This document shows, piece by piece, positions 10,472 to 12,292 of a stretch of DNA of 64,000 nucleotides. Where the stretch lies: NCBI GenBank assembly GCA_021806235.1, contig JAJZXU010000002.1, positions 1 to 64,000 of the forward strand. The letters run 5' to 3'. A program made the position numbers and the translations under genes. The notes under the pieces are model-generated. The model searched no databases and was not told where the DNA came from. It worked only from the letters and a program-made list of their open reading frames with translations. The first letter of the stretch is position 1; the number at the start of each line of letters is the position of its first letter. This DNA is from Thermoplasmata archaeon. Lineage in GTDB: Archaea; Thermoplasmatota; Thermoplasmata; Thermoplasmatales; Thermoplasmataceae.

Positions 10472-10616
10472 AATACGTGAATGAAACCTAATATAAAAAC
10501 ATCTTTAAATTTAATATATGTTTACAGGATGATGAATCCAGCATATCATATAAGAGTTAATTCTAATTTGTTATAGTTTTGCAGGATTCTGGCAGGTAAC
10601 TGAATTTCCTGAACAA

Positions 10617-10766
10617 TTAAATAAGATATATAAGGAAACTTTTTATATATTGTTTGCCATATGATGATTTATAATTTAGATTGAATTCATTGCCTAACAG
10701 TATTTTAGAGGAATTTACTGTTACTATGTTTGTATAGATGTATGATGTATTCTTGCTGTTATTACT
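10617..10766 (-). pseudogene. Paralogue fragment of the secreted Asn-rich protein (central part)
   Basis: The minus strand encodes 49 residues including SSKILLGNEFNLNYKSSYG, nearly identical to the central part of the full-length gene at 11018-11893 (about 11400-11510 in DNA). There is no start, signal peptide or C-terminal domain. It abuts the stop codon of the small membrane protein gene. This is the relic of a second copy, and shows the family has duplicated and decayed here. Confidence 0.8.
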
Positions 10767-11016
10767 GAATTTTAGAATTATCATTTTTTTGATCATCTAA
10801 ATTCTGTTTTTTCATGAACTTAAAAATAATTATAAAAGATATAATCATTGTAGCAAGCAAGATGGATAGTATTAAGCTAATAATTTTTACTTCTCTCTTA
10901 ATAAAAAAATCATATAAAAATGTTATAAGGTATAAAACTGATGCCGATGATGCAAAAATTACTGCAAGAATAAAAAGTTTCCGTTGCCTCTTTAACCGTT
11001 TAACAGTGTCCAGCAT
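10762..11016 (-). CDS. Small two-helix membrane protein coupled to the Asn-rich precursor (immunity-like)
   Basis: 84 aa starting MLDTVKRLKRQRKLF. A strongly basic N-terminus is followed by two transmembrane helices (about 14-36 and 43-66) and a polar tail ending KNDNSKIQ. The ATG at 11016 lies one base after the stop of the precursor gene, and a GGAGG sits 8 nt before it, inside the precursor's last codons. Translational coupling is therefore likely. An upstream ATG at 11049 would overlap the precursor by 32 nt. Small two-helix membrane proteins placed like this often give immunity to a bacteriocin-like product; that role is an inference, with no family match recognised. Confidence 0.6.
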   Translation of the reverse strand: MLDTVKRLKRQRKLFILAVIFASSASVLYLITFLYDFFIKREVKIISLILSILLATMIISFIIIFKFMKKQNLDDQKNDNSKIQ

Positions 11017-11017
11017 C

Positions 11018-11893
11018 CTACCAGCCTCCAAAGCAATTATTTCCATCATGGTAAACAGACAATACCAGTGAACCAAACCCAATACCCAAACTAGCCAAGA
11101 CTCCCAATCCAAGAAGCACACTTGTACCTCCAGTTGCAGCATCAAAAATCGCTAATCCGATAGTTATCGCCGCTAATACCAAAATAGTTCCTATCATGCT
11201 TAAAATGCAATTCCAGTTATAGTCTATTATTATTGATTCTGTTTTATCTATCTCCACATTCTTAATATTATTATTTGTATTCTTAAGCATATTACCCATT
11301 GCCAATGCTATATATCCATACTCCATACCGAACTTATGCATTGTATTATTACTGGAACCCATATAATTCATAGATATTAATTCAATAGAATTTATTAATG
11401 TTTTCATCTGATTGCCATATGATGATTTATAATTCAGGTTGAATTCATTGCCCAATAATATTTTAGAGGAATTTATAGGAACTATATTTGCATAGACGTA
11501 TGATGTGTTGGTATTATTGCTACCGGATATTATATCTGCTATTTCTACCTTGTAATTATTAAACCTCTCTGTAAATGCAATGGAATATCTTATATTAGAA
11601 TTGTTATAGTACTGCACTAAATAATTTGTGCTGTTTGTTTTTATATAATCTGATTTGTATGGTGTAATATTATTATTACTGGCATTATCCTTATATGAGT
11701 ATATGCTGTTTATTGATGTTTTATTGATACTGTTAAAATTTATAGCTCCACTCTTTGATACAGCATAATTATGCATGAATGTAATATTATTTATTTTTAC
11801 AGATTTATCTGTATTATTATTTGAAGCTGCTTTTTCATCTATACGGTTAATATTATTTAATGGTGCGGTATTAAAGGATATCATGATAAACAT
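11018..11893 (-). CDS. Secreted Asn-rich protein with Cys-bounded hydrophobic C-terminal peptide
   Basis: 291 aa as an open frame from ATG 11893. The central 200 residues are rich in Asn, Ser, Thr and Tyr, typical of proteins exposed outside an acidophile. The last ~65 residues change character: NWNCILSMIGTILVLAAITI, a Gly-rich hydrophobic stretch (TSVLLGLGVLASLGIGFGSL), then NNCFGGW at the C-terminus. Two cysteines thus bracket two hydrophobic helices. The frame stays open upstream and would complete a signal peptide (IIIAISILVVTMFIMISF), but the only ATG that could start it, at 11940, is out of frame by an apparent slip in an AT-repeat. The gene may therefore be inactive or variable. Confidence 0.6.
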   Translation of the reverse strand: MFIMISFNTAPLNNINRIDEKAASNNNTDKSVKINNITFMHNYAVSKSGAINFNSINKTSINSIYSYKDNASNNNITPYKSDYIKTNSTNYLVQYYNNSNIRYSIAFTERFNNYKVEIADIISGSNNTNTSYVYANIVPINSSKILLGNEFNLNYKSSYGNQMKTLINSIELISMNYMGSSNNTMHKFGMEYGYIALAMGNMLKNTNNNIKNVEIDKTESIIIDYNWNCILSMIGTILVLAAITIGLAIFDAATGGTSVLLGLGVLASLGIGFGSLVLSVYHDGNNCFGGW

Positions 11894-12089
11894 TGTAACT
11901 ACTAAAATGGATATGGCTATTATTATATTATTCTTTCCATAATATAATATATAAATATTTTTATGCGTTCAATAATAGATGATGTTCTGAAATTGATTTA
12001 CATAAAAAGTTACACATAGGTACAAAATTGTTATCAAAATCAGTAAAAAAAGACAGTTACAAATAAGGGTTTAAAAATATCAGTTCCTG

Positions 12090-12227
12090 TTATGTAAAAT
12101 GGACGGGGTTAAGAATTGAAGTAATATTATTAATGTTTATATAACTGCTTTTAACGTTGCTTTTAACATTATTGGCATTGTTTATATCATTATGATTGAC
12201 AGGAGAATAAGCAATCATTATAAACAT
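12090..12227 (-). pseudogene. Paralogue fragment of the secreted Asn-rich protein (N-terminal part)
   Basis: From ATG 12227 the minus strand gives MFIMIAYSPVNHNDINNANN and ends after 45 residues. It matches the start of the gene at 11018-11893 (MFIMISFNTAPLNNINR, then INNIT). The frame is open further upstream to about 12290, where it abuts the lysK stop, and would add a signal-peptide-like IASLIVVA; no start codon was found there. It is a truncated duplicate. Confidence 0.7.
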
Positions 12228-12292
12228 GGCAACAACAATTAACGATGCTATTTGTATTTTTGTTTTATAATAATAATTTGTAATAAGCGTTT

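Follow-up and report, generated by a model that had tools for sequence, protein, structure and literature searches.

Archaeocins are known mainly from haloarchaea and Sulfolobales. A 2019 catalogue of archaeal antimicrobial peptides and polymorphic toxins by Makarova et al. reportedly predicts members of both classes by locus layout. Halocin C8 combines a secreted archaeal precursor with a Cys-containing hydrophobic C-terminal peptide, and in Thermoplasmata (L145–L148) small membrane genes follow the precursor gene. Polymorphic toxins of the CdiA, Rhs and MafB types consist of a constant N-terminal carrier and a variable C-terminal toxin with the immunity gene directly downstream; signal-less orphan C-terminal cassettes with their own immunity genes recombine in a shared 5' segment, and near-identical tails are paired with near-identical partners (PMC3482391, PMC4287609). 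MafB-CT cassettes provide the parallel for this layout (PMC4287609). Zhang et al. explained in 2012 why toxin and immunity must be swapped jointly, and reported that, a few exceptions aside, most archaea generally lack polymorphic toxins (PMC3482391). The CDI ionophore toxins have polymorphic helical C-termini that act on membranes, and their immunity proteins are very hydrophobic two-helix membrane proteins of only 72–100 residues that vary from pair to pair (PMC11630599). In Thermococcales, the large Ig-domain protein VARTIG carries a hypervariable C-terminus and is followed by membrane-protein genes that are matched to its branches (PMC8416519).

The locus described here lies on the minus strand of the window (the whole 64,000-nucleotide stretch of DNA that was analysed), in a genome of the genus that includes Ferroplasma acidarmanus Fer1 (NC_021592.1), and hence in a species of Ferroplasma. 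The initial annotation had presented it as a single archaeocin gene with a coupled immunity gene. We found a family with orphan cassettes instead, and we consider it rather likely that the locus is one unit of a polymorphic peptide-toxin (archaeocin-like) system with a membrane-active tail and a membrane immunity protein. As in the CdiA, Rhs and MafB systems, a constant carrier precedes a variable C-terminus, the gene directly downstream covaries with this C-terminus such that near-identical tails go with near-identical partners, and signal-less orphan cassettes with their own partner genes recombine in a segment that they share. Archaeocins are secreted archaeal peptides that inhibit other archaea; the Ferroplasma proteins have a signal-like N-terminus and a peptide-like C-terminus, both predicted from sequence. 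In contrast to CdiA, Rhs and MafB proteins, the Ferroplasma carrier measures about 245 residues and is not a long filamentous or Rhs protein, no known delivery apparatus goes with it, the predicted toxin is a bacteriocin-sized hydrophobic peptide rather than an enzyme and shows no similarity in sequence or fold, and the hosts are acidophilic wall-less archaea. The resemblance to CDI ionophores is found in the polymorphic C-termini, here predicted to be helical and membrane-acting, and in the very small two-helix partners that change from pair to pair. However, a CDI ionophore is a bundle of five helices and has separate entry domains, carried on a huge CdiA, whereas the Ferroplasma tail is a two-helix hairpin of about 60 residues with two Cys. 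VARTIG shares the archaeal hypervariable C-terminus with matched membrane-protein genes, but the Ferroplasma family has no Ig domain and no similarity to VARTIG, which in turn lacks orphan half-carrier cassettes of this type. Polymorphic toxin systems as such are known. For Thermoplasmatales, the libraries and literature consulted contained no system that unites a short secreted carrier, bacteriocin-sized two-Cys peptides, membrane immunity proteins and cassette arrays, although the catalogue by Makarova et al. may list this family.

The open frame of the precursor extends on the minus strand from ~11950 to 11018. It encodes an Asn-rich protein that starts with a hydrophobic segment and ends with YNWNC...CFGGW. 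The 67 C-terminal residues (YNWNCILSMIGTILVLAAITIGLAIFDAATGGTSVLLGLGVLASLGIGFGSLVLSVYHDGNNCFGGW) contain Cys at tail positions 5 and 63 and two predicted transmembrane (TM) segments. The stop codon (11020–11018) is separated by one base from the ATG (11016–11014) of the partner gene, which codes for 84 residues with a net charge of +8 and two predicted TM segments. These findings confirm what had been described from the letters of this DNA, namely a pair of an Asn-rich precursor with a Cys-bounded hydrophobic C-terminus and a coupled gene for a basic two-helix membrane protein, which starts one base after the precursor's stop codon and has a GGAGG inside the precursor. The pair is part of an insertion of about 1.8 kb (Table 1) with an M20 peptidase gene and a gene for an 83-residue protein as neighbours. 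At the orthologous site of a related species (G005) the insertion is missing and 77 bp are found; another genome (G002) contains a family copy at this site, at its contig end.

Table 1. Features of the insertion (positions in the window)
Feature	Position	Strand	Remark
Whole insertion	10520..12286		blastn of L043 vs L136 resumes at ~10519 and ~12287
N-terminal remnant (signal segment) of another family member	12108..12269	-	also 5' of the C8 paralogue
TATA-like element ATTTATAT, start	11951..11956	-	
(ATATT)x2 pentanucleotide repeat	11941..11950	-	abuts the ATG
Family start codon ATG, out of frame in the window copy	11938..11940	-	reads MERII-stop
Open frame of the polymorphic toxin precursor (putative), stop included	11018..11937	-	homologous to the full-length family
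Hydrophobic signal/anchor segment	11873..11932	-	helix in the structure model
Conserved carrier domain, residues 100-244	11222..11656	-	beta-rich part and helical hairpin; from alignment and AF2
Recombination anchor	11288..11407	-	full-length copies and orphan cassettes share 90-98% of the DNA here (block medians) and less to either side
Variable tail, predicted active peptide YNWNC...CFGGW	11021..11221	-	67 aa, two-helix hairpin
GGAGG, Shine-Dalgarno-like site for the partner	11025..11029	-	within the precursor's last codons
Predicted cognate immunity protein, 84 aa	10762..11016	-	two TM segments, charge +8
Orphan cassette, decayed, with homology to residues ~141-192	10614..10796	-	overlaps the end of the immunity gene

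That no known family had been recognized in the pair is in line with our searches, since Pfam, NCBIfam, PADLOC and PHROGs contain no family that covers the precursor or the partner. The scanned family members gave no match above the curated cut-offs of Pfam or NCBIfam to carrier, toxin or immunity domains of CdiA, Rhs, MafB or LXG systems. Bacteriocin, immunity, defence and phage families were also considered and gave nothing above curated cut-offs, and weak matches to the membrane-protein families Reticulon, 2TM and SLATT stayed below the cut-offs and look compositional. For the carrier, neither a sequence search of the PDB nor fold searches of PDB and viral structure libraries gave a match at E <= 0.001, and we found no dedicated export or protease gene beside the loci.

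Comparison of the copies within one genome revealed how the precursor is built. The full-length design consists of a conserved, presumably secreted carrier of ~245 residues and a variable hydrophobic tail, usually with two Cys. Five full-length copies in the window's genome have the first ~245 residues in common and then become completely different. The window copy is 96% identical to the C23 copy over the carrier, 28% over the tail and 20% over the partner (C6: 94, 42 and 24%). The C8a copy alone shares the tail type of the window copy, with 92% identity over the carrier, 91% over the tail and 92% over the partner. In this one genome the backbones are 92–96% identical and the tails 25–42%, and at window position ~11225 the DNA identity falls from 90–100% to ~40%. 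In an alignment of ten full-length proteins the carrier ends with T..I.ID; after it, two invariant Cys, the second of them final, enclose a hydrophobic stretch that varies. Most tails measure 52–75 residues, are hydrophobic (GRAVY 1.0–1.8) and are neutral or acidic; among the curated tails, 34 of 38 have Cys at position 5 and 37 of 38 have Cys near the end. The partners in the curated set are all basic membrane proteins of 60–150 residues with two to four TM segments.

A first structure model, based on 10 sequences, was too poor (pLDDT 43) and was set aside. The AF2 model that we used has an overall pLDDT of 61, with values of 70–88 over most of carrier residues 100–244. The tail appears in this model as two long helices (residues 247–272 and 278–308) with moderate confidence (pLDDT about 65–70).

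In the curated pairs, tails and partners vary together. Tail and partner similarities are correlated with a Mantel r of 0.70 for 37 pairs from seven genomes, a value that 0 of 20,000 permutations reached (maximum 0.28); removal of near-duplicates left 33 pairs and an r of 0.58 (again 0/20,000). Tails of the AHACGW type go with partners of ~148 residues in both G000 and G008, and LWGCF tails go with ~130-residue partners in both G002 and G006. A search for the pair in related genomes, as the initial annotation had proposed, showed that homologues retain a C-terminal peptide of the same design and that the pair recurs in the same order, so that the conditions it had named for a refutation turned out in its favour. 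Coupling is tight: the partner begins −10 to +13 nt from the end of the toxin gene (median 1) in 38 curated pairs, 32 of which have a purine-rich site resembling a ribosome-binding site within or just past the last codons of the toxin. Because the loci were curated as pairs, the share of tails with a partner is not an unbiased count, and one orphan in G026 has none. The C8b cassette of the window's genome is mispaired, in that its tail resembles that of G5_C17a (0.82) but its partner does not (0.23). Further downstream in the same array, at the end of the C8 array, we observed an immunity-like gene that stands alone and has no intact toxin tail (L038:8328-8558). It is 55% identical to a G005 partner, the type expected for C8b, and is possibly an orphan immunity gene.

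Full-length genes are followed by orphan cassettes, in which the signal segment and half of the carrier, its first part, are missing and a new tail comes with its own partner. They typically open at residue 183 (MKTLINS.., first Met) or later. Arrays occur in G000, G002, G005, G006, G008, G026 and G078, with four orphans behind a full-length gene in G008 and three in G006; G026 and G078 contain similar arrays. Over residues 181–220 the median DNA identity among all cassettes amounts to 90–98% in four genome sets, compared to 51–74% for residues 161–180 and 33–52% for the tails, and a sliding comparison revealed mosaics on either side of this anchor. Orthologous sites show the outcome of such exchanges. 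At the RNase Z site, G002:C12 and the C23 locus of the window's genome share 98% identity that begins in the flanking gene, runs across partner and tail and ends at about residue 219, where the two diverge. The next immunity gene in G002 is another one, of the AHACGW type, so that the toxin found full-length in the window's genome is an orphan in G002. At the gcvH site both genomes share both flanks, but the cassettes differ. The window and C8a copies, with dS values of 0.26 for the carrier, 0.04 for the tail and 0.08 for the partner, are mosaic as judged by this inequality across the modules.

These observations could also be read as surface-antigen or adhesin variation, in which the tail serves as a C-terminal membrane anchor or surface module, varied to evade viruses or used for kin recognition, and the partner acts as a chaperone or assembly protein. 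An Asn-rich secreted carrier, orphans that look like silent cassettes and a simple repeat at the start codon would suit this reading, and VARTIG is similarly polymorphic in layout but has no recognized toxin (PMC8416519). Yet it is the buried hydrophobic peptide that varies, while the exposed carrier is conserved; a specific basic membrane partner that moves one-to-one with each tail fits immunity better; and acidic or neutral Cys-bounded hairpins of ~60 residues are more bacteriocin-like than anchor-like. We consider this explanation improbable. The tight translational coupling and the opposite net charges of tail and partner might alternatively indicate a two-component peptide, with the basic membrane partner as a second toxic or translocating subunit that acts together with the tail. 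This seems very improbable to us, given that the partners show no signal peptide that can be told apart from a TM segment, differ in size (60–150 residues) and TM number, and are kept beside signal-less orphans in the same way as immunity genes of polymorphic systems (PMC3482391). Least probable of all is a toxin-antitoxin or selfish module that acts inside the cell to secure its own maintenance and that of its neighbourhood, as its multiple, patchy copies at sites that are empty in relatives might suggest, because an intracellular toxin would need neither the conserved hydrophobic N-terminal signal segment nor the large carrier, and C-terminal polymorphism with orphan cassettes is atypical of such modules.

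For the favoured reading, a polymorphic peptide-toxin system, we propose the following mechanism. The signal-bearing carrier would be exported, and the hydrophobic C-terminal peptide (~60 residues, usually with two Cys) would be presented or released, possibly by cleavage near residue 244, before NWNC, and closed by a disulfide. The peptide may then insert as a helical hairpin into the membranes of neighbouring related archaea and act there as a toxin. Cells of Thermoplasmatales lack a wall. The partner, a small basic membrane protein whose translation is coupled to that of the precursor, would remain in the membrane of the producer and block only its own peptide. A new specificity could arise when an orphan cassette, composed of half a carrier, a new tail and the matching immunity gene, recombines at the anchor (residues ~181–220). 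Such an event would swap tail and immunity gene jointly and displace the old pair downstream as an orphan. A more far-reaching version, which we put forward tentatively and rate at slightly under an even chance, is that of an archaeal system not described before, where a single secreted carrier displays a large repertoire of peptides that insert into membranes and are closed by a disulfide. Recombination would drive this repertoire, each peptide would move with a private two- to four-helix immunity protein by way of a short near-identical DNA anchor, and it would be a pentanucleotide repeat at the start codon that switches or tunes the full-length copies. If the favoured reading is true, toxin polymorphism by cassette exchange would extend to wall-less hyperacidophiles, with bacteriocin-sized membrane peptides in place of enzymes. 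The family would provide dozens of natural, predicted toxin-immunity pairs for specificity tests, the table of tails and partners together with the anchor yields testable predictions, and the system could plausibly drive the turnover of strains in acid mine drainage communities.

The window copy itself has lost its start. Family members begin with ATG and continue as MRRSN/MNRNN-IVIAIS. In the window copy a frameshift has put this ATG (11940–11938) one base off the carrier frame. The first ATG in that frame (11893) falls within the signal segment, so that the carrier frame could be entered only there or at a non-canonical codon. Without its in-frame start codon this copy probably stays silent, whether through decay or because it has been switched off; an error in sequencing or assembly could also account for the frameshift. 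Its immunity gene may still be protective. The earlier description of the precursor as exported is consistent with the signal-bearing design of the family, but does not fit the window copy, which is probably untranslated. In the family, (ATATT)n spans the distance from the TATA-like element to the ATG. Five units are found in C8a, C23 and C6, and 4, 6 and 7 in three copies of G002. Including the 6 units before an A4 peptidase gene of the window's genome, the range in seven other copies is 4–7, compared to 2 in the window; TRF counted 5.6 copies in the C8 paralogue. The C6 copy has ATA in place of ATG. The position of the repeat between TATA box and start codon suggests that it may tune or switch expression.

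The A4 peptidase gene (L040:5591-6520, at ~123.6 kb of contig C8 of the window's genome) encodes an acid peptidase of the A4 family (PF01828, E 7e-29). It starts with the promoter, the 6-unit repeat and the signal segment of the toxin family, and the remainder is unrelated. An acquired A4 gene seems to have captured the 5' end of the toxin gene, or the reverse. We considered this enzyme as a dedicated processing protease and rejected it, because within the genus it occurs only in the window's genome and is therefore not a conserved partner.

By sequence the family is unrelated to halocin C8. The halocin C8 model TIGR04449 matched none of 10 Ferroplasma genomes, while five other genomes of the same order scored above its cut-off, which provides positive controls in sister genera. 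In the opposite direction, the profile of our family gave no significant match to those halocin C8 proteins. The resemblance is one of layout; the Ferroplasma tails have two Cys as opposed to about ten, the precursor is unrelated, and the halocin C8 loci in these genomes are not polymorphic arrays. True halocin C8 precursors followed by small membrane genes do occur in other Thermoplasmatales (L145:1108-1755, L146:1135-2240, L148:1120-2886), and the near-identity of some of these loci across genera suggests recent transfer.

The family itself occupies 10 places in the window's genome and occurs in 17 of the 117 genomes of the order Thermoplasmatales, which belong to 6 of its 33 genera. When 390 genomes sampled evenly across the phylum were searched, one further, more distant relative (G200) was added, and we conclude that the family is lineage-restricted and patchy. 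A search of a viral contig collection found no relatives, so there is no sign of a viral carrier in that collection. Between near relatives, dN/dS amounts to about 0.1–0.3 for the backbones and mostly 0.2–0.6 for tails and partners. This coding constraint on all three modules (carrier, tail and partner) indicates that precursor and partner are real genes. In Fer1 (G009, L053:8443-12081) an inserted element that carries two transposase-like genes interrupts the sole family member just past the signal region; G004, from the same genus, contains an intact copy with tail and partner identical to those of Fer1. Other genera of the taxonomic family contain a single-copy homologue (L068:7238-8591, L069:1310-2645, L119:4635-5970) whose tail (..DGSLAACIAELASLG..NYAC) is conserved rather than polymorphic and whose partner, of 130–138 residues, is likewise conserved; this is possibly the ancestral non-swapping form. 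Very distant relatives of 470 and 351 residues in G098 (L120:3587-5445) and G200 (L123:341-2250) keep the layout of a secreted precursor with a hydrophobic, Cys-ended C-terminal peptide and then a membrane protein gene.
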